A DNA stretch of 46,540 nucleotides from Oscillospiraceae bacterium (GTDB lineage: Bacteria; Bacillota; Clostridia; Oscillospirales; Ruminococcaceae), in contig JAFRTG010000022.1 in NCBI GenBank assembly GCA_017427265.1, positions 1 to 46,540 on the forward strand, given 5' to 3'. The notes under the pieces were generated by a model, which made no database searches, was not told where the DNA came from, and saw only the letters and a list, made by a program, of their open reading frames with translations. A program made the translations under genes and the position numbers. This document shows positions 7,385-44,326 of the stretch, in pieces. Positions within the stretch are counted from its first letter, which is position 1. The number at the start of each line of letters is the position of its first letter.

Positions 7385-7396
7385 AAGTTCTTAAAA

Positions 7397-7448: not shown

Positions 7449-7462
7449 CGATCAAACAAAAT

Positions 7463-7490
7463 AAAGCCGGGCTTTGCAAGGCCCGGTTTT
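7463..7490 (+). terminator. Terminator of the original tRNA-Leu gene
   Basis: CCGGGC (7467-7472) pairs with GCCCGG (7481-7486), extended by A-T pairs, and is followed by TTTTATTTTG. It lies 15 bases after the tRNA fragment, as expected if this is the native downstream flank. It could also end the leftward XRE transcript. Confidence 0.75.
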
Positions 7491-7573
7491 ATTTTGTCCT
7501 TTTTTCAGGCAGCTGATCTTCCGGACGGCTTACGCTTCGTGAGCCGGACAGTGAGGATTCTGCCGTTTGGGGG

Positions 7574-8065
7574 TTACGAATCTTTTCCGCCGTATTTTTC
7601 TTTGTTTTGCACAAGTGCAACGATATTTAACGTATTGCAGAGAAATGCGAGCGCGAGAATCAGAACAATGAGAAGCAGGCTTCTGACGAAACCGATTTGA
7701 CGGATCGGGATAAGAATCAGCAACAGCATTGCGATGAGCGTGGAAGCGATCATGACAAGTGTGAGCCTTTTTTCCGTTTGCCTGTATGTGCATTCGGTTA
7801 ACCGGAGCGCGCCGGACAGGTTCTCTTCTGCTGCATCAGAAAACTCGTTTTCGTTCAGTCTTTGGCCAGCGACAATCTCATTGATACTGACGCCGTACAG
7901 ATCGGAAAGCAAGGCAAGGCATTCCACGGGCGGCATATATGTGCCGGTTTCCCAGCGTGAAACGGTTTTGTTCGTCACGCCGATTTTTTCTCCGAGCATT
8001 TCCTGTGTCCATCCCTTTTCCTTGCGCAGCTCTTTCAGAAATTTTCCGATTTTGATGATATCCAT
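7574..8065 (-). CDS. XRE-family regulator with C-terminal membrane segments
   Basis: A 163-residue protein. The start chosen is the ATG at 8065, preceded by AAAGGAGG; a longer frame lacks a good site. Residues 6-60 are a Cro/C1-type helix-turn-helix (KIGKFLKELRKEKGWTQEMLGEKIGVTNKTVSRWETG). After a short linker come two hydrophobic helices (about 103-120 and 125-145) and a basic tail. This layout is common among small membrane-tethered XRE proteins of Firmicutes; the signal sensed is unknown. It has its own promoter and no operon partner, and is the first chromosomal gene beyond the element. Confidence 0.85.
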   Translation of the reverse strand: MDIIKIGKFLKELRKEKGWTQEMLGEKIGVTNKTVSRWETGTYMPPVECLALLSDLYGVSINEIVAGQRLNENEFSDAAEENLSGALRLTECTYRQTEKRLTLVMIASTLIAMLLLILIPIRQIGFVRSLLLIVLILALAFLCNTLNIVALVQNKEKYGGKDS

Positions 8066-8096
8066 TTCGGATACCTCCTTTCGTGTTTCTGATTGC

Positions 8097-8125
8097 ATTA
8101 TATCACAAAAAATGAAATCTGTCAT
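8097..8125 (-). promoter_or_regulatory. Promoter of the XRE regulator
   Basis: On the minus strand ATGACA (8120-8125) and TATAAT (8097-8102) are 17 bp apart. The -10 lies 32 bases before the start codon. AAACAGCGA occurs twice just upstream (8132-8140 and 8169-8177) and could be an operator. I see no gene between 8126 and 8250. Confidence 0.65.
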
Positions 8126-8250
8126 TCCCACAAACAGCGAAAATCACGCATGAACGGTGATTTACCATAAACAGCGACAATATTTCAGTCCGTCTGCTGT
8201 CCGTCATGCGTGAGTTTGCGGTCTATCTGCATGCACTGTAAAGCTATAGG

Positions 8251-8655
8251 TTATTTCAGGTTATACTTTTCCTTGAATAGACGCAGGTATGTCCTTGCTT
8301 CGGTCCGGAACTCTGCGTCTTTCTCTTTTATGGCTTTCTCAACATATCCGCATAAAATATCGTAAAACTCCTGATAAGAAAGGAACGCGGCGGGCGGTTC
8401 ACCCGTATCGAAGCATGTGTCGAAAACCACGCCGTCAAACTTCCTGCCGCCTAAATATTCAATATCAGATTCGGTCATCGCTGCCGCTTCAAAAAACTCT
8501 GCCGTTACCCTCCAGCCATCTCCTCCGATCCCTCTGCCCTGGGAAAAGCCTTTCAGGGTGCTCATAAATACAGAAGGTGATTTGAGATTTGCCAGTCTGC
8601 ACACCTGTTCCATGAACTCATTTATCAGTTCGTAATCCTTCTCGGTCAATGCCAT
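8251..8655 (-). CDS. Small protein, possible toxin-immunity (CdiI-like) protein
   Basis: A 134-residue soluble protein. The ATG at 8655 is chosen, with GGAAGG about 8 bases upstream; a GTG three codons earlier is possible. The central part, LKGFSQGRGIGGDGW and later FDGVVFD...LSYQEFYDILCGYVEKAI, resembles the layout of small immunity proteins of the CdiI type for ribonuclease toxins. That is a weak resemblance from memory. No toxin gene is adjacent, so an orphan immunity gene or an unrelated hypothetical protein are both possible. Confidence 0.6.
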   Translation of the reverse strand: MALTEKDYELINEFMEQVCRLANLKSPSVFMSTLKGFSQGRGIGGDGWRVTAEFFEAAAMTESDIEYLGGRKFDGVVFDTCFDTGEPPAAFLSYQEFYDILCGYVEKAIKEKDAEFRTEARTYLRLFKEKYNLK

Positions 8656-20354: not shown

Positions 20355-20393
20355 CAGTACGCCGCATTCCGCGGAATGAAACGAGGATTACAA

Positions 20394-22463
20394 ATGAAAT
20401 CAGGAAAAAAAATACTCAGCTGCCTTGCTGCAGCGCTCATGCTGCTGCAGAATCCTGTTCCCAAGGCCTCGGCAGAAAAAGCGATGCTCTATGCCAGAAC
20501 ACAGGATCTCATCCGGACAGAGGCCGTCAGGGCGCAGGCCGAACCGGAACCGGTGCCTGATCCCAAGTATGAAACGATTCCGCTTGCAGATCTGCGCGTC
20601 AAGGGCGTTTTTCCGGGAGAAGATCACGTTTCGGATGCCGTTGACGTCTGGTACTGCCCCTGGGAGGACTGCCGGTATCTGTTCCTGCCTTCTACGGCAA
20701 ACCGCGAGGAACTGTATGTTACGTATGATTCCAAATACCGGCTTTTTCTGAACGAAACGCAGGTGACCTCCGGCAAGCTCACATCGCTGCTCAGTACCGC
20801 GGATACCTTTCAGATGCGGGTGGGAGACAAGGAATGCGGTACGCTGAAGGTCATGCAGTCCAATCTCGGCTGTATCTCGCTGCGCGCGCAGGATATGCCG
20901 CTGGATCAGCTCAATTCCTCGCGCCGGAAAACAGCATCGGGTTCTGCGCTGATGGTGAATGCAGAAGGCGAAACCGTATACGATGATGCATTTGAAAAGC
21001 TCTGGGCGCACGGCAATTCCTCGTGGGATTACAGCAAGAAAAAGCCCTATAACCTGAAGCTGCCGAAAAAAGCCGACCTGTTCGGCATGGGCAAGGCCAA
21101 GCGCTGGGTGCTGCTTTCCAATTATCTCGACCACTCAATGCTCCGCAACAGAATGGCGGAGGAAATGGCCAAGAGCGCCGGTATGGAATTTGTTCCGGAT
21201 ACCGTTTTTGCCGATCTCTATTATAACGGCAGCTACTGCGGAACCTATCAGCTGAGCGAAAAGGTGCAGATTCAGAAGAACCGCGTCAATATCCGCGATC
21301 TTGCGGATGAAACGGAGGAGCTCAACAGCAGCGATCTCAGTGAATATCCGGAAAATGTCATCGGCGCCGAAAGCCGCAGTCAGTACATGGAAAACAGCTA
21401 CAAATTCTACGATATCCTCAAAAACCCGGCGGATATTACCGGCGGCTATCTGCTGCAGTTCGAGCAGTGGAACCGTTACGGCATCGGCGGAAAGGCCAAA
21501 AGCGGTTTTGTCACATCGCGCGGTCAGGCCATCACGGTCAAGGATCCGGAGTATGCTTCGCAGGCGCAGGTCGAATATATCCGCGCCTTTGTGCAGGAGG
21601 CCGAGGACGCGATGTATTCCGAGACGGGATACAACGAAAAGGGCAGGCATTTCAGCGAATATATTGACATGGAATCCTTTGTCGAAGCGTATCTGATGCA
21701 GGAAATCACCATGAATATTGACGCAACATTTTCGAGCTTCTATTTCTGGAAGGACTCTGATCTCACCGGTGACGGCAAGCTGCACTTCGGACCGCCGTGG
21801 GACTTTGATCTGAGCTGCAACAACTTCCCGACAACGCGCATCAATGAGGACGGCATCGTCGGCTATTCCTACAGGCCGGACAATCTGTTTGCAGCACGCT
21901 TTCCGATTCACGGCTATGACGACAACAAGCGCACCTCGTCGTCCGGCAGCGGACGGCCGACCGTCGGCTACAGCTGGATTGCACAGCTTTACCGGCAGGA
22001 GGATTTTGTGCACGAAGCGGCAGAGACCTATTTCCGGAAATTCCGGCCGTATCTGCTCTCGCTGACCGATGAAAAGGATCCTTACTTCATGCAGCTTGCT
22101 GCGCAGATTCAGCCCTCGGCAGAGATGAGCAATGCCCGCTGGCATACCTACGGCGGCTCGAAATATACCGTGTTCGGCTCGTCCAGCGGTGAGGATTTCA
22201 TCGGTTCTGTTGCGATATTAAGTGACTTTGTCAAAAAGCGCGCCGACTGGCTCAGCGAGCTCTGGGAGCCGTACCGGTATCTTGAGGGTGATGCGAACGG
22301 CGACGGCGAATTGAATGCTGCCGATGCGGTCGCGCTGCAGAAATGGCTGCTCTGTTATCCGGACGCGGCACTCGCAAACCGCCAGAGCGCCGATTTCAGC
22401 AGGGATTACCGCATTGATTCTGCTGACTTCACGCTGCTGAAGCGCAGTCTTACCGGAACGTGA
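20394..22463 (+). CDS. Secreted CotH-family kinase with C-terminal dockerin
   Basis: A 689-residue protein. The start is the ATG at 20394, seven bases after CGAGG. A signal peptide (about residues 1-28, cleavage near ASA-EK) precedes the CotH domain. That domain shows GNSSWDYSKKKPYNLKL, WVLLSNYLDHSMLRN, GTYQLSEKVQI and the WDFD metal-site motif in GPPWDFDLS, all typical of CotH. CotH proteins are atypical kinases of spore-coat and secreted proteins; in ruminococcal cellulosomes they occur fused to dockerins. Residues 631-689 are a type I dockerin with two calcium loops (GDANGDGELNAADA and DFSRDYRIDSADF) and so should bind a cohesin scaffold. Confidence 0.92.
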   Translation: MKSGKKILSCLAAALMLLQNPVPKASAEKAMLYARTQDLIRTEAVRAQAEPEPVPDPKYETIPLADLRVKGVFPGEDHVSDAVDVWYCPWEDCRYLFLPSTANREELYVTYDSKYRLFLNETQVTSGKLTSLLSTADTFQMRVGDKECGTLKVMQSNLGCISLRAQDMPLDQLNSSRRKTASGSALMVNAEGETVYDDAFEKLWAHGNSSWDYSKKKPYNLKLPKKADLFGMGKAKRWVLLSNYLDHSMLRNRMAEEMAKSAGMEFVPDTVFADLYYNGSYCGTYQLSEKVQIQKNRVNIRDLADETEELNSSDLSEYPENVIGAESRSQYMENSYKFYDILKNPADITGGYLLQFEQWNRYGIGGKAKSGFVTSRGQAITVKDPEYASQAQVEYIRAFVQEAEDAMYSETGYNEKGRHFSEYIDMESFVEAYLMQEITMNIDATFSSFYFWKDSDLTGDGKLHFGPPWDFDLSCNNFPTTRINEDGIVGYSYRPDNLFAARFPIHGYDDNKRTSSSGSGRPTVGYSWIAQLYRQEDFVHEAAETYFRKFRPYLLSLTDEKDPYFMQLAAQIQPSAEMSNARWHTYGGSKYTVFGSSSGEDFIGSVAILSDFVKKRADWLSELWEPYRYLEGDANGDGELNAADAVALQKWLLCYPDAALANRQSADFSRDYRIDSADFTLLKRSLTGT

Positions 22464-25868: not shown

Positions 25869-26082
25869 GCCCCTGACGCAAATAATTTTTTGGTATAATC
25901 ATGCTGTTTGTCCGGAAGGGGAAATCCATATAAAATGCATCCGCAGGTTTTCGGTATGCGTCAGTCAAGTTGTCTGGATGTACGTTTCGATTTACATATA
26001 TTATGGAATATTTAAGCGGAATTCGTTTGTATCGCACAAAATTCAAACCTTAAATTTCGTTAATATTGCCTTTGATTATCAA

Positions 26083-26110
26083 ATATTGCGAAAGTTGTAT
26101 GTTAATGATA
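26083..26110 (+). promoter_or_regulatory. Conserved distal motif upstream of peptidase gene A
   Basis: ATATTGCG, 10 bases, then GTTAATGATA. The same two blocks occur upstream of genes B, C, D and E. The end of the motif is 160 bp before the -10 box. An ATTCAAA also occurs here at 26041, but 42 bases before the motif instead of 25. The surrounding stretch 25900-26240 is AT-rich and holds no gene. Confidence 0.55.
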
Positions 26111-26246
26111 TACAGGCTATCCGCCGGAACGAACAGCTCATTTTTGAGGCTTTTCGTTTCCAGCGCTGAATTTTGGCTTTTTCAAGATTATGTTGCAGTA
26201 ATTTAATTATATATCAAAATATGTTTATAAAACAGCAAAAATAGCC

Positions 26247-26276
26247 TTGCGAATCTGGAAGAAAAAATGCTATACT
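26247..26276 (+). promoter_or_regulatory. Promoter of gene A
   Basis: TTGCGA (26247-26252) and TATACT (26271-26276) with an 18-bp spacer; TGC before the -10 makes it an extended -10. Confidence 0.65.
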
Positions 26277-26303
26277 ATGTGCAGTTCGGTGAGCACGGGT
26301 TGA

Positions 26304-26348
26304 AGCCGCAGGGGGTGCGGCTCTCAGACGCCGCCCGTCTGACCGGGC
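26304..26348 (+). promoter_or_regulatory. GC-rich leader with mutually exclusive hairpins (gene A)
   Basis: AGCCGCA/TGCGGCT (26304-26310/26316-26322) forms one hairpin. CAGACG (26325-26330) can pair with CGTCTG (26336-26341), or GCCCG (26333-26337) can pair with CGGGC (26344-26348); the two overlap, so only one can form. A-rich then T-rich sequence follows, before the ribosome site. This looks like an attenuator or RNA switch, though no known class is recognised. Confidence 0.4.
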
Positions 26349-26386
26349 AAAAAATCTATTATTTTTTTTACAAAGGAGAAGAAAAT

Positions 26387-27565
26387 ATGAAACGCAGATT
26401 TACCAAAGCTCTCGCATCCGTTCTCGCAGCCTGCTCTCTTGCAACCGCAACACAGGTCGCACTGACCGCAAATGCATACTCCTACCCCGGTGATGCAAAT
26501 GTTTGGGCAACAAGCCACATCTATTCTGCCGTACATTACAACGGCAAGCGCAATGTCGCTCTTTCCTACAGCTCCAGCCAGGGCACTTACTGGATGGTTG
26601 ATAAGAACAGAAAGATCCGCATTGTGGAAGACGGCGTCTATCAGCCCGGTTACCACGGCAATCCGAATGTCTGGTACATCGCAACGGGCAGCACGGATCC
26701 GGTCGCATTCACAGACTGGACAACCTTCAATGCCAGAGCACAGCTGATGGAGAACATGGAGAATGCACGCGATTACTATTCTTCGCTCGGCCACAGCAAC
26801 TTTAACTTTGACAACGGCACCGGCGTCTACACCTATCTCTACGGCGCACACTACAATGTTCCGGGCAGCTATGCAACCAACTGCAACTATGGCCAGACCT
26901 GGATCGGCTTCGGTGAGGCAAACAGCATGTTCTACAACATGAGCGTGGATGACGGTATCGTCAAAATGCCGTTCGCAGAACTGATTCTCAAGCAGAAGGT
27001 CGGCTGGTACGGCGGCATGGGTCTTGAGGCTGATGCAATCAGACGCGCTTATGTCGATCTGTTCGCAGAGCTCGGTGAAGAGTCCACTGACTGGAAGATC
27101 GGCGCAAAGGCATATAAGGCAAATTACAGCACCACCAATCCGAAGAACTATTCGATGGTAAACATTGCATCTCCGAGCCAGACCACTGACCCGAGTATTT
27201 CGGTTTCCGGCTTCTACACCACGGTCTCTGCTTTCAACAATAACAAGACCACACTGCAGAACCTCTACAACCAGACCTCCGGCAACGGCCGCTACAATGC
27301 AGTACGCCGTGCATCGACTGTTCTGTCCAATGCACTGTATAAGTCCACGACCGGTTCTAACGCTCTGACCAAGAACGATCTTGCAAAGATTCTGTACAAG
27401 TCTCTGGATTCCTACGGCAACAATGCAACATGGGTTCAGTTCAACAATATCCGCGGCATCATCACCGGTGCAGCAAGCAACTACCTCTACAGCACTTATA
27501 ACTCCACCACCGCTGCAAATAAGCTCAGCAGACTGAACACTGTGCTCAACCAGGCAGGTCTGTAA
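26387..27565 (+). CDS. Secreted M4-peptidase-like protein with lost active site (gene A)
   Basis: A 392-residue protein. The ATG at 26387 follows AAAGGAG; the longer frame starts within the promoter. A signal peptide (to about residue 30, ALTANA) is followed by YPGD and the same fold as gene C: GTYWMVDKNRKIRIVE, HSNFNFDNGTGVYTYLYG, and the ends of the catalytic region. Where the active paralogs have VGHEFTH, this protein has VKMPFAE (residues 192-198), and the Glu of MEAYSD is replaced by Arg (RRAYVD). All zinc ligands and the catalytic Glu are therefore gone. The frame is intact, with normal promoter and terminator, so it is probably expressed as a pseudo-enzyme, for example an inhibitor, decoy or binding protein. 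It has no dockerin. Confidence 0.82.
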   Translation: MKRRFTKALASVLAACSLATATQVALTANAYSYPGDANVWATSHIYSAVHYNGKRNVALSYSSSQGTYWMVDKNRKIRIVEDGVYQPGYHGNPNVWYIATGSTDPVAFTDWTTFNARAQLMENMENARDYYSSLGHSNFNFDNGTGVYTYLYGAHYNVPGSYATNCNYGQTWIGFGEANSMFYNMSVDDGIVKMPFAELILKQKVGWYGGMGLEADAIRRAYVDLFAELGEESTDWKIGAKAYKANYSTTNPKNYSMVNIASPSQTTDPSISVSGFYTTVSAFNNNKTTLQNLYNQTSGNGRYNAVRRASTVLSNALYKSTTGSNALTKNDLAKILYKSLDSYGNNATWVQFNNIRGIITGAASNYLYSTYNSTTAANKLSRLNTVLNQAGL

Positions 27566-27594
27566 TTTCATCAGATTATCAGTATTTCCATGAA

Positions 27595-27624
27595 GATCCT
27601 GCGCAGATTTTTCTGCGCAGGGTC
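27595..27624 (+). terminator. Terminator of gene A
   Basis: GATCCTGCGCAG pairs with CTGCGCAGGGTC (one G-T pair) around ATTTTT, followed by a long T tract. Confidence 0.9.
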
Positions 27625-27645
27625 TTTCTTTTTTTGCATATCAAT

Positions 27646-27697
27646 ATTCAAATGGAATAATATTTGTCAGATATTGCGCCCCGGAAAGTTAATGATA
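27646..27697 (+). promoter_or_regulatory. Conserved distal motif upstream of gene B
   Basis: ATTCAAA (27646-27652), ATATTGCG (27671-27678), 9 bases, GTTAATGATA (27688-27697). The last two blocks are nearly identical to those of gene A. The motif ends 150 bp before the -10 box. Confidence 0.6.
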
Positions 27698-27824
27698 CAT
27701 GTTGAATCAATTTTCATAGATGTTCGGACAGATTTTATTTTGCAGGAGCCTGCGGAGAATTGTACAGGGAACGGCAGGAGCTTTCTGATTTTACAATTTT
27801 CTTGAAATTTCCGCAATAATCCGC

Positions 27825-27853
27825 TTGTAACGAAGCGGCGAATTTGTTATACT
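27825..27853 (+). promoter_or_regulatory. Promoter of gene B
   Basis: TTGTAA (27825-27830) and TATACT (27848-27853), spacer 17 bp. The leader of about 170 bases contains a hairpin CCGATGCG/CGCATCGG (27862-27869/27908-27915) that encloses AACC/GGTT pairing. Confidence 0.7.
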
Positions 27854-28030
27854 GATGTAAACCGATGCGGACAACCATAATACAAATCGAACGAAAATGC
27901 GGGTTGACGCATCGGATATGTACCGATAACAGGACGGCAGGCAGCAGTGCTGCCGGGTGATCGCTGGCTGCGAAAATCTGCACTGTATGTCCTGTATCCG
28001 CAGTTTTATGAAGAGGAGAAGAGGTTTATA

Positions 28031-29962
28031 ATGAAACACACACTCGTAAAGACCGTTGCTTCTGTGATGTCGCTCTGTATGCTGGCATCCTCAATGCCGC
28101 TTGCGCATGCGGCGGATGCGCCTGTTTATCCCGGGAATGAAAACCTGACGGAGACAACTGCTGTATATACTTCGGCTGCGGGCGCGACTTGCAGCGTTAC
28201 ATGTGCAAAAGACGGCGACCAGATCGTGCTCGTTGATTTGAAAAGAAATATTCGCATCGTTGATGCAAGCACCAGAATGTGGAGCGTCAGCGGAGAAGGT
28301 GCGCCGATCACGAGCGCGGTTGATGAAACGAAATGGAATCAGTGCGCGGAGCTGCTTGCAGCTATGCAATCAGTCTATGATTTTTACCACGATACGCTCA
28401 AACGCACAGATTTTGATTTCAACAGCAAACATGATGATACCATTTATGCTGCTGTTGTACAGAGCGGGATCAGCGATACAAGAGCAGTCAAAGAGGCAAA
28501 AATCTACTACAACGGTCAGATGGAAGTGAAGGACATTGTTCCTTGCCTTTGGGTTTCTCATGGAGATGAAGTCTTCAACAGCCTTGGTTCTGATATCAGT
28601 GCGGTGGGACATGAGTTTACGCATTTTGTGACAATGAAAGAACTGGAATGGTGCGGTAATACTGACAACAGTTTTGAATCAGCGGCATTGATGGAAGCAT
28701 ATTCTGATATTATGGGTGAGCTTTGCGAAGACGAACCGGACTGGAAAGCTGCTGCACATGCAATTAAGAATGATCCCCAAAAGAATCTGAGTGAGAGAGA
28801 TATCGCAAACCCGGCCGGTACGCAGAAGCCGACTCCTGTTGATGAAGAATTTCTTGATGATTACAACGTATTTCTGACCAGAAGAAGTGCTTTGGAACAT
28901 TATAAACAACCGAAGGGCGGCAGCCCTGCGTCCTATCTCGTTTCCACCATCATTTCCCATGCTGCCTATGAAATGTATGCGGCGGGCATCGGCAAGGACG
29001 AGCTTGCGAAGGCCTGGTATGCGTCCATCGACTATTATTCCGGCAACACCAAACAGGCAACGCTGCTTGACTGCCGCAATGCGGTTTGTGCAGCGGCAGC
29101 GGATTATTTCTACAGCAAGTACAGCGCAGACGAAGCGGCTGCCAAACTGAAAATCGTTGAGGATGCATTTGCAGCAGCCAATCTCAAGCCTTCTCAGGCA
29201 GAAGCAGAAAGCACGGATTATATGGCCGGCTTTGTGAGAAGGGAACAGGCAAAGTTCCCGTCCGGCACATACTGGAACACCGGCGACCCGGATACATGGA
29301 GCAATGAACCGGTCTATGCCGACCGCAGCTCATATCTCCCGATGGGGCCGACTGTATACCCGTTTTGGGGTCTGACCGGCTGGCAGACTGAGGAGGAATA
29401 CTTCCAGTGCGCCGGCTTTGCAAAGAAGCTGCAGGAGGACTATTTCGGAAGAACGGTCATGATTCAGGACGATAATCCGCATTATGTTCCGCAGATCGGC
29501 GACCATCTCCGTTTGGAACATTATATTTGGGACGAACCCACGGGCGCAGGCCACAGCATTTTTGTTACAGGCGTTGACGGTGATACGATTACATATGCAG
29601 ATTGCAATGCTGACGGATCCTGCATGATCAACTGGAATCAAACAGGGAAACTCGTTCGCAATTCTGAGGGCAATATCTGTCTCAATGGGACGGGACGCTA
29701 TCATGATGAATTTGCATGGGTCGAAAGACCGCTGAAGCAGAGTGACGTCAATGCGGACGGCAAGATCGACCGCTACGACTGCTGGCAGCTCAGATATCTT
29801 GCGGAAGGCAAGGCGGACAGCGTACAGGAAAACGAGATCCTGCGCTGGCATGCAGCAAATCTGAACGGCGACGACAAAATTGATCTTGCTGATCTGGATC
29901 TGCTTGACAGACTGACCTATTCCCCAAGCGCAAAAGACAGATTCGGCTTTGTTGCTTTCTGA
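28031..29962 (+). CDS. Secreted M4-like metallopeptidase/Cys-His domain/dockerin fusion (gene B)
   Basis: A 643-residue exported protein. The start is the ATG at 28031 after GAGGAGAAGAGG. Signal peptide 1-27 (AHA-AD). Residues about 60-385 are an M4-like zinc peptidase with HEFTH (194-198) and the Glu ligand in MEAYSD (Glu222), but no FTP/PepSY propeptide. Residues about 395-568 are a Cys-His domain of papain/NlpC type: QCAGFAKKLQ (Cys460), GHSIFVTGV (His508) and TYADCN (Asp524/Asn526), ending in WVERP. Residues 572-630 are a dockerin with two calcium loops (SDVNADGKIDRYD and NLNGDDKIDLADL). It would be secreted and attached to a cohesin scaffold. Two peptidase-like modules in one dockerin protein is a combination I do not know as a named family. 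Confidence 0.88.
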   Translation: MKHTLVKTVASVMSLCMLASSMPLAHAADAPVYPGNENLTETTAVYTSAAGATCSVTCAKDGDQIVLVDLKRNIRIVDASTRMWSVSGEGAPITSAVDETKWNQCAELLAAMQSVYDFYHDTLKRTDFDFNSKHDDTIYAAVVQSGISDTRAVKEAKIYYNGQMEVKDIVPCLWVSHGDEVFNSLGSDISAVGHEFTHFVTMKELEWCGNTDNSFESAALMEAYSDIMGELCEDEPDWKAAAHAIKNDPQKNLSERDIANPAGTQKPTPVDEEFLDDYNVFLTRRSALEHYKQPKGGSPASYLVSTIISHAAYEMYAAGIGKDELAKAWYASIDYYSGNTKQATLLDCRNAVCAAAADYFYSKYSADEAAAKLKIVEDAFAAANLKPSQAEAESTDYMAGFVRREQAKFPSGTYWNTGDPDTWSNEPVYADRSSYLPMGPTVYPFWGLTGWQTEEEYFQCAGFAKKLQEDYFGRTVMIQDDNPHYVPQIGDHLRLEHYIWDEPTGAGHSIFVTGVDGDTITYADCNADGSCMINWNQTGKLVRNSEGNICLNGTGRYHDEFAWVERPLKQSDVNADGKIDRYDCWQLRYLAEGKADSVQENEILRWHAANLNGDDKIDLADLDLLDRLTYSPSAKDRFGFVAF

Positions 29963-29980
29963 TAACTCCTATTCCCTTCA

Positions 29981-30014
29981 GCCTCCTGCGCGGATCCCAC
30001 ACTGCGCGGGAGGC
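29981..30014 (+). terminator. Terminator of gene B
   Basis: GCCTCCTGCGC pairs with GCGCGGGAGGC (one G-T pair), followed by ACCTTTCCCTTT. Confidence 0.75.
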
Positions 30015-30087
30015 ACCTTTCCCTTTGCGGAACCAAAACCTTTCCAAATCTTATGGATGCATGTGTGCACACGGGGAATCAAAAATT

Positions 30088-30140
30088 ATTCAAAGTGTAT
30101 ATATTTGATTAAAAATTGCGGAGCGGAATAATTAACGGTG
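30088..30140 (+). promoter_or_regulatory. Conserved distal motif upstream of gene C
   Basis: ATTCAAA (30088-30094), AAATTGCG (30113-30120), 10 bases, ATTAACGGTG (30131-30140). It ends 157 bp before the -10 box. Confidence 0.6.
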
Positions 30141-30260
30141 TGCCGGCTCCGGAGCACAAGAAAGTGAACATTTCAGAAAAGAAGCGTTGCTGCGTGCATC
30201 GCTTTTATTCTTATCTTGCATTTTTTATGATATTCTAATATAACATGAAAACAAAAAAAT

Positions 30261-30302
30261 CGCAATTTTCAACTGGTTTTTTCGGAACAGGTGTGCTATA
30301 GT
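30261..30302 (+). promoter_or_regulatory. Promoter region of gene C with -45 box
   Basis: The -10 is TATAGT (30297-30302) with an extended TGC; the -35 region is poor. CGCAATTTTC (30261-30270) lies 36 bp before the -10, as it does in genes D and E. The leader has ACCGG/CCGGT (30321-30325/30332-30336). Confidence 0.6.
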
Positions 30303-30425
30303 GGGATAGTCCGAAAGCGAACCGGCGGGGTCCGGTGCTGCTGCAAACGCTGTATTTTTCGATGGGGAAGCATCTGTATGATTCGCTGAGCGGACAAAAA
30401 TATTGATACACAGGAGTGAAATCAA

Positions 30426-31598
30426 ATGAGAAAAGGACTTACAAGACTCGCAGCATCTGCAATGTCGGTCTGCCTGCTTGCATCGGCCGCTCCGGCAGCA
30501 ATCTTTGCACAGGCATTGGCTTATCCCGGCGACGCCGCGATGAAGTCAGAGGGATGCCAGTACACCCCGGCAAGAGGCGGTTCCCGCCCGTGGGTTTCCA
30601 TTTCGTGGGATAAGGTGAACCAGAAGATCTGGATGGTTGACAAATCCACGAAGATTCGTGTGATCAAGGGCGACTGGACTTCCTACAGAGGGATGCCCGG
30701 AACAGAATACGCACGTCCGTCTTCTGACAAAACACCTCTGAACCAGCAGCCGAACTGGGACAAAAATGCTGAGATGATGCACAATGTGGAGAAGGTTTAT
30801 TCCTTCTACAAAAACACGCTCGGCCACAGCAACTTCAATTTTGCCGGCGGCAGCGATCAGAATATTTATGTTTATTCCTTCCCGAATCCCGGTGATGCCC
30901 GTGCGCATGTCATTGATGACATCGGCAGCCAGCAGCCGAACAAGCTGAACTGGCTGGCATTCGGTGATGCCGGCACATATACCTACAGCATGGGTTCTGA
31001 TCTCGGTGCAGTCGGTCATGAGTTTACACATCTGGTTTCCTACCAGAAACTCGGCTGGCTCCCCGGCATGAACACGGAGACTGATGCGCTGATGGAAGCA
31101 TATTCCGACATTCTGGGCGAGCTCTGTGAGACCAATCCGGACTGGAAGGTTGCCGGCGATGCATTCAAGGGCAATACTGCAACAAATAAGCAGTATTCCT
31201 ACAGAGACCTTGCAAATCCGGGCGCAACGAACGATCCGCTGCACGGTTATTCTCCGAACTATGACAATTATTATTCCTTCAAGTATAACAAAGCATGGCT
31301 TGAGAACAATCATCCGTATACGGTGGCTCCTTGCTACAGCGGATGCACAGTCGTTGGTCACGCTGCATATCTGATGTATAACAGCGGTATCCCGAAGAAT
31401 GACCTTGCAAAGATCTGGTATAACTCCATGAACTGCTATACTGTGAGCGACACCAAAAATGCAACCTTCAGCGATTGCCGCAAGGCAGTTGTGCAGGCTG
31501 CAAAGTATTACTACGGCACATGGACGCAGGAAGCACGGAACAAGGTGCAGAAGATCGAGAATGCATTCAATGAGGTCTGCATTTATAACTGGAACTAA
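30426..31598 (+). CDS. Secreted M4-like metallopeptidase, single module (gene C)
   Basis: A 390-residue protein with an AGGAG site before its ATG. The signal peptide is residues 1-28 (identical in gene D to residue 25). The catalytic region begins almost at once, with IWMVDKSTKIRVIKGDW, HSNFNFAGGSDQNIYVY, HEFTH (198-202) and the third ligand Glu224 in MEAYSDILGEL. Compared with thermolysin, the GVHxNSG motif that carries the transition-state His is replaced by CYSGCTVVGHAAYLM, putting Tyr304 at that position. There is no propeptide, Cys-His domain or dockerin, so this one would be a free secreted peptidase, or held by unseen contacts. Confidence 0.88.
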   Translation: MRKGLTRLAASAMSVCLLASAAPAAIFAQALAYPGDAAMKSEGCQYTPARGGSRPWVSISWDKVNQKIWMVDKSTKIRVIKGDWTSYRGMPGTEYARPSSDKTPLNQQPNWDKNAEMMHNVEKVYSFYKNTLGHSNFNFAGGSDQNIYVYSFPNPGDARAHVIDDIGSQQPNKLNWLAFGDAGTYTYSMGSDLGAVGHEFTHLVSYQKLGWLPGMNTETDALMEAYSDILGELCETNPDWKVAGDAFKGNTATNKQYSYRDLANPGATNDPLHGYSPNYDNYYSFKYNKAWLENNHPYTVAPCYSGCTVVGHAAYLMYNSGIPKNDLAKIWYNSMNCYTVSDTKNATFSDCRKAVVQAAKYYYGTWTQEARNKVQKIENAFNEVCIYNWN

Positions 31599-31622
31599 AA
31601 TATGAACTGCTTCAGCAGTCAG

Positions 31623-31653
31623 AATCCCGCGCAGTATCTTGCTGCGCGGGATT
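31623..31653 (+). terminator. Terminator of gene C
   Basis: AATCCCGCGCAG pairs perfectly with CTGCGCGGGATT, followed by TCTTTTG. Confidence 0.85.
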
Positions 31654-31665
31654 TCTTTTGCTGCA

Positions 31666-32132
31666 AAAACCTTTCCAAATCTTATGGATGCATGCGTGCA
31701 CACGGGGGACCAAAAATTATTCAAAGTGTATATATTTGATTAAAAATTGCGGAGCGGAATAATTAACAGTGTGCCGGCTCCGGAACGCAAGAAAGTGAAC
31801 ATTTCAGAAAAGAAGCGCTGCTGCGTGCATCGCTTTTATTTTTATCTTGCATATTTATGAGATTTTAATATAACATGAAAATAGAAATTCGCAATTTTCA
31901 ACTGGTTTTTTCGGAACAGGTGTGCTATAGTGGGATAGTCCGAAAGCGAACCGGCGGGGGGCCGGAACTGCTGCAAACGCTGTATTTTTCGATGGGGAAG
32001 CATCTGTATAATTCGTGAGAGGACAAAAATACTGATACACAGGAGTGAAATCAAATGAGAAAAGGACTTACAAGACTCGCAGCATCTGCAATGTCGGTCT
32101 GCCTGCTTGCATCGGCCGCTCCGGCAGCGATG
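31666..32132 (+). repeat. Duplicated upstream-plus-signal-peptide block, copy 2
   Basis: Second copy of the block at 30035-30503, with scattered substitutions and one- to three-base gaps upstream and none in the first 75 coding bases. It contains the distal motif, -45 box, promoter and leader of gene D. Confidence 0.9.
31744..31771 (+). promoter_or_regulatory. Conserved distal motif upstream of gene D
   Basis: AAATTGCG (31744-31751), 10 bases, ATTAACAGTG (31762-31771), with ATTCAAA 25 bases before its start. It ends 155 bp before the -10 TATAGT at 31926-31931, which again has an extended TGC and the upstream CGCAATTTTC box. Confidence 0.6.
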
Positions 32133-33992
32133 TATGCAGAAGCAGCAAATTATCCCGGTGACAGTGCTGTTTCTGCACAGGGTTGTCAGTACACCCCGGT
32201 CAGAGGAAGCACCCGTCCCTGGGTTGAAATTGCCTATGACTACAATGCGCATAAGATGTGGATGGTTGACAAAAGCAGAAACATCCGCGTGATCAAGGGC
32301 AACTGCTCGACCCGTTACTTCGGAGACATGCCGACCTACACCGTTACTCCGTCACCTGACAGAGATCCGCTCGGTCAGCAGCCGAACTGGGATACCAATG
32401 CACAGATGCTGCACAATGTTGAGAAGGTGTATGACTTCTACAAGAAAACGGTCGGTCATACGAACTTCAATTTCAGCGGTTCGAGTGATAAGAGACTGTA
32501 TGTCTGCTCTTATGATCTCCCCGGTGATGCACGTTCTGATTACAGAATCAATAACGGAGGACACGGTCCGAGTGAGCCCATTGCATGGCTGGGCTTCGGC
32601 AATGCGGGACAGTATACCTATAATATGGGCGTCGATGAAGGCGTTGTCGGCCATGAGCTGACACATCTTGTGCTCTGGCAGAAGCTGGGCTGGTATCCGG
32701 GCATGAACACGGAGACCGATGCACTGATGGAAGCATACTGCGATATTATGGGCGAGCTTTCCGAGACAAACACGGACTGGAAGGTCGCCGGCGATGCATT
32801 CAAGAGCAATACTGCAACGAACAAGCGCTACTCTTACAGAGACCTCACAAATCCGGGCGCAACGAACGATCCGCTCCACGGCAATATCGCATTCTATGAT
32901 GACTATATTACGTTCAGAACGAACCGCGAGTGGCTGGAAAAAGAAACGCCGTATTCGGTGCTGCCTTGCTACAGTGGCTGCACGATCATCGGACACGCTG
33001 CTTATCTGATGAATCGCTTCGGTATCTCCAAGACTGATCTTGCAAAAATCTGGTACAAGTCCATGAATAACTATTCGGGTGATGCACGTGAGGCAACCTT
33101 TATGGACTGCCGCGAAGCAGTTGTGAAAGCAGCAAAGTCATATTTCGGCAGTTCTTCTAATAATGTGAAGCTCGTGGAGCGTGCTTTCGATGCTGTCAAT
33201 GTGAGCCACCGCACGAACCTTTCTATTGCAGTGGCTGAAAACAGCACGAATCACTCTGATTTTGTCAGACATGAGATGATGAAATTCCCGAACGGCCGCT
33301 ACTGGAATGCAGGCGATCCGGATCTGACTTCGACAACCGGTAATAATAATGACCATACAACCTATCTGAGAATGGGACCGACTGTGGGACGCAATTTCCT
33401 CCAAACGTACTACTGGCCGACGGAGGAAGGATACTATCAGTGCGCAGGTTTTGCAAAGAAGCTGCAGGTCGACTACTTCGGGACTGATACATTCGTGCAG
33501 GATGATAACATCAACTATACGCCCCGCTGCGGTGATCACCTCCGTATTAAGCACTATTATAGGGGAATGATCCTGGGTGAGCACAGCGTATACATCACTT
33601 CTGTCAGCGGCAACCGGATTACTTATGCGGACTGCAACTCTGACGGCAACAATGTTATCAAATGGAACAAGAGTGTGACCTACAGCCGCGATTCCTCCGG
33701 CAGACTGTACTATACGGAAGGTCAGGATCGCTATGAGTTTGAATGGGTCGAGAGACCGATCATGCAGGGCGATGTCAATGCAGACGGCGTTCTCAACAGT
33801 GCTGACGTTACGGCGCTGAACAAGATCATCAACAACACAGCTCCGACTTCCGGTTACGACACCGTGATGCGCAAGACAGCAGCGGATATCAACGGCGACG
33901 GCACGGTCAACAGCTCCGACCGTACACTGCTCAATCAGCTCATTAACAACACAAACAACGCAAAAAGCTCCTACGGCTATATCATTTTCTGA
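32055..33992 (+). CDS. Secreted M4-like metallopeptidase/Cys-His domain/dockerin fusion (gene D)
   Basis: A 645-residue protein with AGGAG before the ATG. Signal peptide as in gene C. M4-like domain about 60-385 with HELTH (200-204) and Glu226 in MEAYCD; Tyr306 stands where M4 enzymes have their transition-state His. Cys-His domain about 395-568: QCAGFAKKLQ (Cys463), EHSVYITSV (His510), TYADCN (Asp526/Asn528), WVERP. Dockerin 572-632 with GDVNADGVLNSADV and DINGDGTVNSSDR, both canonical calcium loops. The M4 domain is closest to gene C and the C-terminal half closest to genes B and E, consistent with module exchange within the cluster. Confidence 0.9.
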   Translation: MRKGLTRLAASAMSVCLLASAAPAAMYAEAANYPGDSAVSAQGCQYTPVRGSTRPWVEIAYDYNAHKMWMVDKSRNIRVIKGNCSTRYFGDMPTYTVTPSPDRDPLGQQPNWDTNAQMLHNVEKVYDFYKKTVGHTNFNFSGSSDKRLYVCSYDLPGDARSDYRINNGGHGPSEPIAWLGFGNAGQYTYNMGVDEGVVGHELTHLVLWQKLGWYPGMNTETDALMEAYCDIMGELSETNTDWKVAGDAFKSNTATNKRYSYRDLTNPGATNDPLHGNIAFYDDYITFRTNREWLEKETPYSVLPCYSGCTIIGHAAYLMNRFGISKTDLAKIWYKSMNNYSGDAREATFMDCREAVVKAAKSYFGSSSNNVKLVERAFDAVNVSHRTNLSIAVAENSTNHSDFVRHEMMKFPNGRYWNAGDPDLTSTTGNNNDHTTYLRMGPTVGRNFLQTYYWPTEEGYYQCAGFAKKLQVDYFGTDTFVQDDNINYTPRCGDHLRIKHYYRGMILGEHSVYITSVSGNRITYADCNSDGNNVIKWNKSVTYSRDSSGRLYYTEGQDRYEFEWVERPIMQGDVNADGVLNSADVTALNKIINNTAPTSGYDTVMRKTAADINGDGTVNSSDRTLLNQLINNTNNAKSSYGYIIF

Positions 33993-34020
33993 TTCGGTAA
34001 ACCTGTCAGATTTCAAATAT

Positions 34021-34047
34021 CCCTGTGCAGAAATGCTCTGCACAGGG
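34021..34047 (+). terminator. Terminator of gene D
   Basis: CCCTGTGCAG pairs with CTGCACAGGG, followed by GCATTTTTTT. Confidence 0.9.
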
Positions 34048-34125
34048 GCATTTTTTTGACGGCATTTGACCTGTTTCTGATAATTAAATATGATGCGCAT
34101 TTTTCACACGATCCTGTGTCTTTTT

Positions 34126-34178
34126 ATTCAAATTGGATAATTCATGCCAATTATTGCGGTTTGTAATAATTAAAGATA
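34126..34178 (+). promoter_or_regulatory. Conserved distal motif upstream of gene E
   Basis: ATTCAAA (34126-34132), TTATTGCG (34151-34158), 10 bases, ATTAAAGATA (34169-34178). It ends 158 bp before the -10. In this copy AATTATT and AATAATT form a perfect 7-bp inverted repeat across the core. Confidence 0.6.
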
Positions 34179-34299
34179 TCACGAAATAAAATCGCACGAT
34201 TGTCATAAATCAAACAGGTGCGCTTTTTTATATGCCCGCGATTTTGTTTTCACAGGCGAATCTGAATTCGGCCGGAATCGCATCTTGCAGGCTTTTTTT

Positions 34300-34341
34300 C
34301 GCAATTTTCTACTAGATTATTTGACGAATATGTGCTATAGT
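34300..34341 (+). promoter_or_regulatory. Promoter region of gene E with -45 box
   Basis: CGCAATTTTC (34300-34309) lies 36 bp before TATAGT (34336-34341), which has an extended TGC. The leader has CCGGA/TCCGG (34363-34367/34373-34377). Confidence 0.6.
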
Positions 34342-34464
34342 ATGGGTAGTCAGGGCGGCGAGCCGGATTGTTTCCGGTATGATTGGTTCCCGTTCTGCTT
34401 TTGTTGTTTCAGATATAAATATTTTCACTTTCCGGACAAACTGATTGATTTTAGGGAGAATAAA

Positions 34465-35367
34465 ATGAAAAAATGTCTCAGAACGATTGCAGCATCCGCG
34501 CTGTCCGCGTGTCTGCTTGCTGCAGCTGCTCCGGCAGCACTGACTGCAAATGCATCCTACGGACCGAACGGTACGATCAAAGCAACACGCACAACGGTTT
34601 CGCAGAGCACAGCACTGGTTCCGACACATATGGCTGATTTTGTCAGATATGAGCGGCAGAGGCTCCCGGAGGGCAGATACTGGAACACCGGCAATCCGAA
34701 TACAACCAGCAGCAACAGGATCTGGGATTCTCACGATACTTGTCTGCCGATGGGACCGACGGTTTATAAGCATTTTTATCAGACCTACTGGCAGTATATG
34801 GAGCCCTATTATCAGTGTGCAGGTTTTGCCAAGAAGCTGCAGATTGACTACTTCGGCACAGATGTCTTTACACAGGTCGGCTCCAATCCGGGAAGCTATA
34901 CCCCGCAGATCGGTGATCATCTGCGCCTGAGCATTTCCCTCCGTAATAATATGCATCTCCTTGACCACAGCATTTTTGTAACGGCAGTAAACGGTCTGTC
35001 CATTACATATGCTGACTGCAATGCCGACGGATACTGCGGCATCGACTGGGATCAGCATATGACCTTCCAGCGCGCTGCTGACGGCACGCTTTACTGCGAT
35101 TTAGACGGTTATCATTATGAATTCCTCTGGGTCGAAAGACCTGTGAAGCTCGGTGATGCCAATGCCGACGGCCTGCTGACAGATGACGATATTGATGCAA
35201 TGAATGCGGTCATCAACGGAACAGCCGGCTATAAGCAGATGGACTGCGACAGACGTTCGCAGGCCTGCGATATCAACGGTGACTATCGCATTGACAGCAG
35301 GGACGTTTCGCTCCTCAGAAAACTGCTGAACGGCACTGCTTTGTCGCAGTACGGCTTCATTAAATAA
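34465..35367 (+). CDS. Secreted Cys-His domain/dockerin protein (gene E)
   Basis: A 300-residue protein. The start is the ATG at 34465 after TAGGGAG. Signal peptide to about residue 30 (TANA-SY). No M4 domain. The Cys-His domain (about 55-228) shows GRYWNTGNPN, QCAGFAKKLQIDYFG (Cys118), DHSIFVTAV (His168) and TYADCNADG (Asp184/Asn186), and ends in WVERPV. The order Cys, His, Asn/Asp fits papain-like amidases and peptidases (NlpC/P60, CHAP), but no named family is certain. Dockerin 230-292 has GDANADGLLTDDDID and DINGDYRIDSRDV. It may be the stand-alone form of the domain fused in genes B and D. Confidence 0.87.
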   Translation: MKKCLRTIAASALSACLLAAAAPAALTANASYGPNGTIKATRTTVSQSTALVPTHMADFVRYERQRLPEGRYWNTGNPNTTSSNRIWDSHDTCLPMGPTVYKHFYQTYWQYMEPYYQCAGFAKKLQIDYFGTDVFTQVGSNPGSYTPQIGDHLRLSISLRNNMHLLDHSIFVTAVNGLSITYADCNADGYCGIDWDQHMTFQRAADGTLYCDLDGYHYEFLWVERPVKLGDANADGLLTDDDIDAMNAVINGTAGYKQMDCDRRSQACDINGDYRIDSRDVSLLRKLLNGTALSQYGFIK

Positions 35368-35411: not shown

Positions 35412-35448
35412 CATCCCCAAACGGTCTTCATCCTTCCGTTCGGGGATG
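35412..35448 (+). terminator. Terminator of gene E
   Basis: CATCCCC and AACGG pair with CCGTT and GGGGATG, followed by TTTTTCG. Confidence 0.8.
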
Positions 35449-35658: not shown

Positions 35659-36471
35659 ATGAATCGTCTGATGAAAAAGGTTGCTTCGGCAGCTGCTTCT
35701 CTTACAATGCTTGCATCGTGTGCAGCGGTCTGCCCGCTCAGCGCTTCTGCCGCAGAGACCACCTATACCTACGGCGCATTCACTTACGTTGTACGCAACA
35801 ATCTGGTCGGTATTGTTTCCTGCAGTTCCACTGCTGCGCAGATTACAGTTCCGGAAAAGATCAACGGTAAGTATGTGACCTGTATTCTGACCGGTGCTTT
35901 CAAGAATCGCACGAACCTGAAAAAAATCAATCTGCCGAAATACATCACCAATATTGAGCCGTTTGCATTTCAGAACTGCTCCGATCTGACTGAATTTGAT
36001 GTTCCGTTCTACACAACAACTGTGGCGCCCGGTGTGTTTGCAGGCTGCACCAAGCTGAACAAGATTGTCATCAACGGTCCGTATACAATGTTCGTGAACG
36101 GTACATTTACCAATCAGAACGGATACACAAATGCATTCAACGGCTATGTGTACATTGACAAATACAACATGTACCCGGCACCGTCCTTTGCTTCCGCGGC
36201 ACAGAGACGGTATTATCTGCTCGGCGATGCAAACTTTGACAATGTCGTTGACGCTGTTGATGCCTCCCAGATCCTGAGCATGTATTCTACGCTGTCCACC
36301 GGCAATGTGACCGATCAGCAGCTCAGCGAAGGAAAGGTTTATGCTGATGTGAACCGCGACGGTTATATCAACTCGATTGATGCATCCCTCGTGCTGTCTT
36401 ACTATGCAAAGGCTGGTGCAGGCTATCAGTATCCGTTTGAGTATTACATGTACTGCGATAATCAGAGATAA
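35659..36471 (+). CDS. Secreted LRR_5 (BspA-like)/dockerin protein
   Basis: A 270-residue protein. The ATG at 35659 follows ACGGAGG. Signal peptide to about residue 32 (ASA-AE); LASC at 18-21 also resembles a lipobox, so lipidation is possible. Residues about 60-165 hold BspA-type leucine-rich repeats (GAFKNRTNLKKINLPKYI, FAFQNCSDLTEF, GVFAGCTKLNKIVI), which usually bind proteins or surfaces. Residues 189-252 form a dockerin with GDANFDNVVDAVDAS and DVNRDGYINSIDAS. It likely brings a binding domain to the same scaffold as the peptidases. Confidence 0.88.
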   Translation: MNRLMKKVASAAASLTMLASCAAVCPLSASAAETTYTYGAFTYVVRNNLVGIVSCSSTAAQITVPEKINGKYVTCILTGAFKNRTNLKKINLPKYITNIEPFAFQNCSDLTEFDVPFYTTTVAPGVFAGCTKLNKIVINGPYTMFVNGTFTNQNGYTNAFNGYVYIDKYNMYPAPSFASAAQRRYYLLGDANFDNVVDAVDASQILSMYSTLSTGNVTDQQLSEGKVYADVNRDGYINSIDASLVLSYYAKAGAGYQYPFEYYMYCDNQR

Positions 36472-38252: not shown

Positions 38253-39899
38253 TCAGGAATGCCAGTAATCATTCAGGAAATTGATGCGCGACTGCAGCCA
38301 GTCAGCGAGATAATCCGCGGCCTCCTTCTGCGATTTTGCATCTCTTGCACGTTTGCAGAGCTCCATGGAGAACGCCTCATTGTGAATGAGATTGTCCCAC
38401 TTTGCATAGTTCCGCTTGAAGGCTTCCTTTGCGGTCTCCGAATCCGCCATGACAGTTCTGACGGCGTTTGTAAACACGCCGCTGTCATAGGCCTTTGTCC
38501 ATGTCTCGCGGATGATGTCCTGATACCAGTCCTCGTGCATCAGCACAGCCAGCCACGGGTTGACCGTTTCGTAGGTGTTGTCATCGACGTCCGGCACAAT
38601 GCTGCCTGCGTAGAAGCCGGTGCCGTCCTTGCAGCGCTTCTTGTTGCCGAGTCCGGAGTCAAAGTCCCACGGCGCCTCAAAGGTCAGCTTTTTGTCGCCG
38701 TCCGGGCCGAAGTCTGCGTCCATGTAGAAGCTCGACCAGTAGATATCCGCATCACAGGTCAGCTCCGCAATGACATAGGCATCGGCGAGTGACTTCACAT
38801 TGACAACAGCCTCGACGGCCTCCTGCGGCGTCATCTGATCGGCAGGCTCAATGTCAGAGTAGTCTTTGTTGAACTGATATGCCTTGTCCTCGTAGGCTGC
38901 TGCATACATGATGCGATAGACCTGATTGACATAATTGGCGATAAAGTCGTGCTGCTCCTGCGAGTTGATCTTGCTCTTGATTGTCATACCGACATCCCGT
39001 TTGATATCATCGTCATTTTCCGGGAGACAGGTGATTGTCTGCTTGGGTTCTTCGTCGCCTTCAAAGGGCTTCAGCGGCGCATTGTCGTTATAATCGACAT
39101 GGAACTGCTGCAGCGGTTCTTCGTTATAATAATAGCCGTCAAATTCCAGCAGATAGCCGATATCTGTTCCGGTATAATCCGGCTGTTCCGGCTCGGTGAT
39201 CGCAATGCGGTCGTTATCGACCTGCTGCTGTTCGGTCAGCAGATAAACGCCCCAGTATTCGCCGTTGATCTGTACCTCGACGAGCTGCGCATCTGCGGCA
39301 TAGAGACCGTCCGGCTCCAGTATTTCGCGTGCAATGGAAAGCGCCGTTTTATCACGCAGCATAGAGCCGTCCTTATAGGCCGCGAGCAGCAGCCAGTTCT
39401 TGAATTCTGCGCCGTCATTCAGACCGAGCAGATTCTGCTTTTCGGTGAATTTAATGCGCAGCGGTTTTTTGTCATAGGTTGTCGTCCAGTTTCCGCGTAC
39501 CTTGACTTCGGCATCCAGTGCAGCGGGCGTTCCGTCCTGCTTGGGGTCGTAGAGCGTGATCTGACAGGCTTCGTAGTAGGGAGCAGGCGGCATCTGATAG
39601 CCCGGCGTCCAGCTGGCGATCTGTTCGGCGACATGCTGCGCAACGGGCTGCGTCACAAAATCCATGACATTGGGATCCCGGCTGACGGTATCAATACACA
39701 GCATCGGGATTGCGGGATCAACCTCCGGTGCCTCTTTTTCTGCTTCGGAAACGGACTGGTCATCCGGTACAGAATCGGACTGCTCGATGTTTTGGGATTC
39801 CTCAACCGGTGCAGAGGACTGCTCCTTTGGTTTTCCGGCACATCCGCTCAGCAGACCGCATGTCACCAGAAAGAGTGCAATGATTTTTCTTTTCTTCAT
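38253..39899 (-). CDS. CotH-family lipoprotein
   Basis: A 548-residue exported protein. The ATG at 39899 lies 9 bases after GGAG. The lipobox LLSGC places the lipidated Cys at about residue 20. An acidic Ser/Glu/Pro linker (about 25-60) precedes the CotH domain. That domain has KVRGNWTTTYDKKPLRIKF, NWLLLAAYKDGSMLRDKTA, WGVYLLTEQQQVDNDRI, CDADIYWSSFYM, and the WDFD metal-site motif in EAPWDFDSG. CotH-fold kinases phosphorylate secreted proteins; here the enzyme would be cell-surface anchored by lipid, whereas the other CotH in this window carries a dockerin. It has its own promoter and no operon partner. Confidence 0.9.
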   Translation of the reverse strand: MKKRKIIALFLVTCGLLSGCAGKPKEQSSAPVEESQNIEQSDSVPDDQSVSEAEKEAPEVDPAIPMLCIDTVSRDPNVMDFVTQPVAQHVAEQIASWTPGYQMPPAPYYEACQITLYDPKQDGTPAALDAEVKVRGNWTTTYDKKPLRIKFTEKQNLLGLNDGAEFKNWLLLAAYKDGSMLRDKTALSIAREILEPDGLYAADAQLVEVQINGEYWGVYLLTEQQQVDNDRIAITEPEQPDYTGTDIGYLLEFDGYYYNEEPLQQFHVDYNDNAPLKPFEGDEEPKQTITCLPENDDDIKRDVGMTIKSKINSQEQHDFIANYVNQVYRIMYAAAYEDKAYQFNKDYSDIEPADQMTPQEAVEAVVNVKSLADAYVIAELTCDADIYWSSFYMDADFGPDGDKKLTFEAPWDFDSGLGNKKRCKDGTGFYAGSIVPDVDDNTYETVNPWLAVLMHEDWYQDIIRETWTKAYDSGVFTNAVRTVMADSETAKEAFKRNYAKWDNLIHNEAFSMELCKRARDAKSQKEAADYLADWLQSRINFLNDYWHS

Positions 39900-44260: not shown

Positions 44261-44326
44261 CAAATTGAATCACTCCTAACTGTAAAAAAATATTGTGTTA
44301 TATGCTGTGTATATTGCAGCATCATT

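Follow-up and report, generated by a model that had tools for sequence, protein, structure and literature searches.

The DNA considered here, a stretch of 46,540 bases from an Oscillospiraceae bacterium (contig JAFRTG010000022.1; hereafter the window), is the entire contig C20 of a 3.8-Mb genome. It holds a tandem array of five intact open reading frames (ORFs) on the + strand, genes A to E, with intergenic gaps of 456-472 bp. Each product combines a signal peptide with one or more of three modules, an M4-like domain, a CHAP-like Cys-His domain and a dockerin, as follows.

26387-27565, + strand: gene A, signal peptide and M4-like domain without zinc or catalytic residues (392-codon ORF)
28031-29962, + strand: gene B, signal peptide, M4-like domain, CHAP-like Cys-His domain and dockerin
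30426-31598, + strand: gene C, signal peptide and M4-like domain with HExxH...E
32055-33992, + strand: gene D, signal peptide, M4-like domain (residues ~36-384), CHAP-like domain (~385-570) and dockerin (571-645)
32652-32666, + strand: HELTH zinc motif of D (residues 200-204; third ligand Glu226)
33441-33443, + strand: Cys463 of D, in a triad with His510 and Asp526
34465-35367, + strand: gene E, signal peptide, CHAP-like domain (Cys118, His168, Asp184) and dockerin

An earlier note had described five neighbouring genes built from M4, Cys-His and dockerin modules, and the intact ORFs, Pfam matches and alignments confirm this. Pfam Peptidase_M4_C matches B (1e-7), C (1.1e-12) and D (1.8e-14), all above the cut-off, and Dockerin_1 matches D above its cut-off (5e-13) and E (1.5e-4) and B (6.8e-4) below it. 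Gene A has no Pfam match; its M4-like module aligns with 35-36% identity to C and D and 29% to B. Within the array, pairwise identity is 29-65% for M4-type modules, 52-53% for Cys-His modules and 32-49% for dockerins.

In predicted structures, the M4-like modules have the thermolysin fold. When 18 M4-like members were aligned by sequence with thermolysin, 17, including B, C and D, had the two His and the Glu of HExxH together with the distal Glu; Asp170 was found in all 18 and Arg203 in 17. Gene A has M, P, E and R at H142, E143, H146 and E166, and the description of it as dead is upheld at all four zinc and catalytic positions. On these alterations A looks like a retained non-enzyme. A decaying pseudogene was considered and rejected, since the ORF is intact; the A versus C comparison gives a non-synonymous divergence (dN) of 0.69 and a synonymous divergence (dS) of 2.04, but as a pair value this mixes both branches. 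Two further residues, His231 and Tyr157, are catalytic in M4 peptidases. Neither is kept in any of the 18 members, and His231 is replaced by Tyr in ten, B, C and D among them; the His231 column comes from the sequence alignment only, and a HMMER alignment puts this region in another register. For this reason B, C and D are termed M4-like rather than standard M4 members. The FTP/PepSY propeptide has no Pfam match in A-D at E up to 1, and the thermolysin-like part of D begins at residue 36. The likeness to thermolysin that led to the label M4 therefore holds for the fold, the HExxH...E site of B, C and D, Asp170 and Arg203, but not for His231, Tyr157 or the propeptide, and B and D differ further in being fused to CHAP-like and dockerin modules.

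For the Cys-His module, the earlier note had suggested a comparison with papain-like folds. Structure comparison points to a CHAP/NlpC-P60-type fold with the triad kept: in the predicted structure the Cys lies at a helix start, and the His and then an acidic residue follow on strands. This Cys-His-acidic order is that of CHAP enzymes. Every one of the 12 aligned rows that represent E or an M4-fused module has a full Cys-His-(Asp/Glu) triad, as do 8 of the 15 other rows. Among the relatives, L119 (G148:C25:5000-18000), L072, L080, L089 and L032:2553-3446 lack the Cys and mostly the His, so that the family contains apparent pseudo-enzymes. In sequence searches, Pfam CHAP gives 12.8 bits for B against a cut-off of 26, only 3 of 27 relatives match it at E up to 1 (best 8.4e-4), and a PDB sequence search found no relatives (best E 0.4). 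Its top structural neighbours include the wall hydrolases Ly7917, PlyGRCS, the MepS complex and PlyPy, and Gsp amidase is also a match. CHAP amidases and endopeptidases such as Gsp amidase, Ly7917 and PlyGRCS share the fold class and the triad order, whereas the array modules are only 12-16% identical to them and have an extra N-terminal segment and dockerin targeting. With zinc and triad residues kept, and His231, Tyr157 and the propeptide absent, the docked enzymes look catalytic yet non-standard.

A related known protein is RflaF_05439 of Ruminococcus flavefaciens FD-1, a secreted protein with two NlpC/P60 modules and an X-dockerin, of which an NlpC/P60 module was solved and whose available description gives no measured activity and leaves the substrate unproven (PMC3573020). 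It resembles the array proteins in joining a dockerin to an NlpC/P60-superfamily Cys-His module. It differs in its triad, Cys109-His215-Gln230 with Cys and His 106 residues apart against 50 residues in gene E, and the published description, as far as available, has no M4 module and an X-dockerin instead (PMC3573020). Its structure was absent among the best 50 matches listed by Foldseek or VIA-align for the Cys-His module.

The dockerins of the array carry the two calcium-loop repeats of type I dockerins. The module of D resembles solved dockerins in sequence (best E 2.8e-7), that of gene E in fold (2ccl, 1.6 Å over 61 residues; 5lxv of R. flavefaciens, 2.2 Å over 61). Absence of cohesins would have spoken against a scaffold; the search of the genome gave 22 matches on 9 contigs, 18 of them above the cut-off alone or with neighbours. 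In R. flavefaciens, according to the accessible parts of the reports, more than 220 dockerin proteins are known, about half classifiable as carbohydrate-active (PMC3573020), and in strain FD-1 Table 2 holds 16 dockerin-borne peptidases, 10 of them transglutaminase-like (PMC2930009). Architectures there include Peptidase-UNK-Doc, zincins-Doc-UNK and LRR-Cysteine proteinase-Doc (PMC2930009, PMC5301203). The group-4 dockerin of the peptidase-Doc protein bound ScaE, and ScaC was the partner of dockerins in group 6, e.g., that of the zincins protein (PMC5301203). These proteins share with the array the joining of peptidase-like modules to dockerins, while the available parts of the same papers do not describe the M4 + CHAP-like + dockerin fusion, the tandem array or the shared promoter (PMC2930009, PMC5301203). 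Similarly, Clo1313_0689 of Clostridium thermocellum (8x39), a cellulosomal double-dockerin protein, is a dockerin-borne protease, but from the portion of its description at hand it is named a serine protease and its catalytic modules are unrelated to those of the array. The accessible part of PMC3672088 names no dockerin-borne protease, and neither the fusion nor the composite promoter described below was found in the literature searched, which comprised open-licence papers only. Dockerin-borne peptidases are thus already known in R. flavefaciens.

The fusion is not confined to the array. The M4+Cys-His+dockerin layout was sought in other ruminococci and found in several genomes: besides B and D, it occurs on contig C25 of the same genome, in G149 (two copies), G153, G162, G167 (where a further dockerin separates the modules) and G173, and in Ruminococcus sp. 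Tb.RUG.491 and R. flavefaciens UBA1190, two genomes from a collection scan that lie outside the 30 genus genomes. The scan also named Ruminococcus sp. Phil11 among the relatives, and from these names the host is very probably a Ruminococcus of the rumen type. In profile searches, 13 of the 30 genus genomes match the Cys-His profile and 13 the M4 profile; in a family-wide draw of 148 genomes, the own genome included, the numbers are 6 and 4. The own genome has 15 Cys-His and 13 M4 matches, although some of the latter are fragments of a single gene and another covers no more than the signal peptide of E. Further Cys-His + dockerin + leucine-rich repeat (LRR) proteins lie on its contigs C34, C3 and C2, and two more tandem M4+dockerin proteins, with long N-terminal regions and both domains above Pfam cut-offs, were seen at L123 (C44:38000-50000).

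The five-gene array itself was seen only in the window among the loci read. In G149 (C27), G162, G153 and own C25, the fusion adjoins an ATP-binding cassette (ABC) ATPase and a ~530-residue membrane protein (identity to the G149 copy 48-98%). Relatives of these neighbours are missing from the window except for a 22%-identical ABC match, so that the array looks like a relocated, expanded copy. At fusion loci of three genomes (L112:7180-11282, L113 and L114 from 8982) the gene is followed by a GGDEF-EAL protein and then a sensor-like protein, which in L112 has an HD domain and a sub-cut-off 5TM-5TMR_LYT match. These neighbours hint at a cyclic-di-GMP link; neither protein has a relative in the window.

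Each gene was previously credited with its own promoter and terminator, and the units were called separately controlled. This wording misleads, since one and the same composite promoter stands in front of B-E and, in part, of A. Alignment of the five upstream regions gave element I, ATTCAAA-N20-ATTGCG-N10/11-TTAA, 336-385 bp 5' of the ATG in B, C, D and E, and it is joined by element II, CGCAAT-N5-ACT-N-G-N17-TGNTATANT. As for the terminators, terminator-like sites follow A, C, D and E, and the hairpin after B is visible by eye and unflagged in the scan. Terminator-like sites are twofold enriched over shuffles (22 versus 10.3, standard deviation 3.3), and promoter-like sites modestly (23 versus 15.7, standard deviation 3.9).

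26058-26105, + strand: element I of A, divergent, 4 mismatches, right half ATTGCG...GTTAA intact
27592-27627, + strand: terminator-like hairpin after A (terminator scan)
27646-27693, + strand: element I of B, right spacer one base shorter
27812-27853, + strand: element II and extended -10 of B, 1 mismatch
30034-30482, + strand: C from its promoter through the leader into the signal-peptide region, each 75-bp bin sharing 88-100% identity with D (from 31665)
30088-30135, + strand: element I of C (upstream alignment, genome scan)
30261-30302, + strand: element II and extended -10 of C (pattern scoring)
31622-31654, + strand: terminator-like hairpin after C (terminator scan)
31719-31766, + strand: element I of D (upstream alignment, genome scan)
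31890-31931, + strand: element II and extended -10 of D (pattern scoring)
34020-34048, + strand: terminator-like hairpin after D (terminator scan)
34126-34173, + strand: element I of E (upstream alignment, genome scan)
34300-34341, + strand: element II and extended -10 of E (pattern scoring)
35429-35448, + strand: terminator-like hairpin after E (terminator scan; 7 pairs)

In its own genome, element I at up to 2 mismatches occurs only 5' of B, C, D and E (four matches; reversed control 0). Shuffled 450-bp stretches reach up to 3 mismatches in 5 of 2000 cases and up to 4 in 42 of 2000, so the score of A is weak alone. With up to 1 mismatch the element precedes 7 of the 19 family genes examined (B, C, D, E, L112, L113 and L114); L028 and the M4 gene of C25 keep mainly its right half, and it is no better than in shuffles at the C25 fusion, L029, L030, L115 (332 bp only), L116, L117, L118 and L122. 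Across the 30 genus genomes, the same threshold gives 10 matches in 7 genomes and none for the control, B being absent because its right spacer is one base shorter. Six lie 5' of family genes (own C, D and E; the fusions of G149 (C27), G153 and G162), two belong to composite promoters that lack a gene, and those of G148:C25 and G159:C76 have no element II (5 and 9 mismatches). A scan of 396 family genomes gave 18 places beyond the genus, compared with 9 for the reversed pattern; none of the 18 carries element II (at least 6 mismatches), and they were set aside as background.

The spacing of the composite promoter is regular. Of 17 regions measured, 12 have precisely 36 nt from CGCAAY to the -10 and one has 37; three of these 12 (L126, L131 and L114b) had been found by these patterns, and CGCAAY is absent in A, L030, L117 and L118. 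Outside these 17, no TGNTATA lies within 210 bp in the C25 fusion, L029, two of L116 and L122. Elements I and II are 136-147 bp apart in 12 of the 13 regions with both (68 in L115); L028 and L126 hold a second CGCAAY. When 29 element-I places were scored for a downstream element II, nine carried one at a distance of 136-147 bp with no more than 1 mismatch (own B, C, D and E; G148:C24, G149, G153, G162 and G166), and the remaining 20, including all 18 outside the genus, had at least 5 mismatches. Since C and D, and likewise L112 and L113, are near-duplicates, the independent cases are fewer. Four of the 14 element II matches in the own genome have 0-1 mismatch, all within the array. As a genome-wide regulon marker element II was rejected; once 2 mismatches are allowed it coincides with ordinary sigma-70 promoters, and among the matches listed every one of the 30 genus genomes is represented.

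Composite promoters also stand where no protein gene was seen to follow. In G148, a perfect composite promoter (L126, G148:C24:50084-50131) comes after a relative of the membrane protein (52%), but there is no fusion gene; the gene was likely lost, and a small RNA there is possible. Another complete one is L131 (G166:C210:15468-15515), and a composite-like site with the right half of element I only lies directly after the G153 fusion (L114, ~8400-8590). A AAGCGAACCG-like stretch is common to the leaders of C, D, E and relatives, together with a possible TCCG/CGGA pairing. A riboswitch was considered and dropped, as folding energies are ordinary in C, D, E, L112, L113, L114, L028, L126 and L131 (single-sequence z-scores of 0.2 to -1.5 against mononucleotide shuffles; -2.9 to -3.9 in A, B, L034M4 and L114b), and Rfam gave only chance-level matches on the leaders.

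The proposal of the earlier note, scaffold-attached digestion or processing of proteins, is partly supported. The analysis establishes the anatomy, the predicted folds, the catalytic residues kept, the repeated occurrence of the fusion and the common promoter, while we infer export, catalysis, cohesin partner, substrate, the activator proposed below and any looping of the DNA. We lean, with modest confidence, to the reading that the array supplies secreted, dockerin-tethered hydrolases that cut peptide bonds at the scaffold and are co-expressed from a dedicated promoter. A-E would be a tandem-expanded family of secreted Ruminococcus proteins, whose N-terminal module is a putative thermolysin-fold zinc domain with an altered active site and no detectable propeptide, the second a divergent CHAP/NlpC-P60-type Cys-His-Asp domain and the third a two-repeat calcium dockerin. 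B, D and E would be exported and dock onto cohesins of the cell's scaffoldins, C would act free, and A may be kept as a non-catalytic homologue. The docked enzymes would work near the fibre or the cell's surface, and the peptide bonds that they cut could be those of plant-wall proteins, of nearby microbes or of cell-wall peptides.

The main rival, which we consider rather unlikely, is a cell-wall-lytic role, in which the CHAP-like module would attack peptidoglycan as an amidase or endopeptidase, wall peptides or proteins would be trimmed by the M4-like module, and the cell's own wall is remodelled or fibre neighbours are lysed. The phage and bacterial wall hydrolases among the structural neighbours favour it. 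However, the same folds serve non-wall amidases, e.g., Gsp amidase, and no wall-binding module was matched in A-E by Pfam, the targeting module being a dockerin.

Co-expression from a dedicated promoter faces a separate objection, which overlaps the other readings: the promoter elements may be a residue of common descent or recent duplication with no dedicated regulator. Indeed, the upstream regions of C and D hardly differ, L112 and L113 belong to closely related organisms (proteins 98.6% identical), and 12 of the 19 family genes, the C25 fusion included, have no good element I. Beyond 30482, C and D are mostly 57-87% identical per 75-bp bin, with dN 0.29 and dS 1.2 in the mature part against a synonymous difference (pS) of 0.12 in codons 1-32. 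The best fit is a recent gene conversion that covered the promoter and the signal segment. Nevertheless, the invariant bases of element I and the II/-10 spacing are kept across B, C/D, E, L112/L113 and L114, despite saturated synonymous sites (B/D, D/E) and little-conserved sequence between the elements, and we regard mere descent as unlikely. That the domains are largely non-catalytic binders, decoys or inhibitors on the scaffold, their motifs being relics, would suit gene A, an intact ORF that has lost all four zinc and catalytic residues, the seven of 27 incomplete Cys-His triads and the loss of His231, but is improbable given the zinc site of 17 M4-like members, the full triads of E and the fusions, and the purifying selection, on average, on the mature part of C and D.

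In the favoured reading, the composite promoter (element I ~140 bp from II, and II 36 nt before the extended -10) would switch the set together. ATTGCG in element I and CGCAAT in element II are reverse complements, a hint that one protein binds both, probably an activator. A fuller version is possible and put forward tentatively: a dedicated regulon in which this activator, through a DNA loop, would drive a weak -35 promoter, so that paired M4-like and CHAP-like hydrolases would be released onto the cellulosome in a co-ordinated way. Such an old control module would move with its genes, be homogenised between paralogues and outlast a lost gene, perhaps as a small-RNA promoter.

Elsewhere in the window, LRR+dockerin proteins (35659-36471 and 44522-46426) and a CotH kinase+dockerin protein (20376-22463) were seen, as well as a CotH gene (38253-39899) and a large LRR protein (40076-44263) with no dockerin match. 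At 529-8131 lie serine recombinase, conjugative coupling protein, DUF6017 and helix-turn-helix genes (GC content 44-49%); this left end resembles a piece of an integrative conjugative element that the contig boundary has cut.

Cellulosomes have been studied as polysaccharide machines. The recurring M4+CHAP+dockerin fusion, with its own conserved promoter in several species, offers a defined and testable set that could reveal whether protein or peptidoglycan, too, is handled by the scaffold, and by what means its accessory parts are switched.

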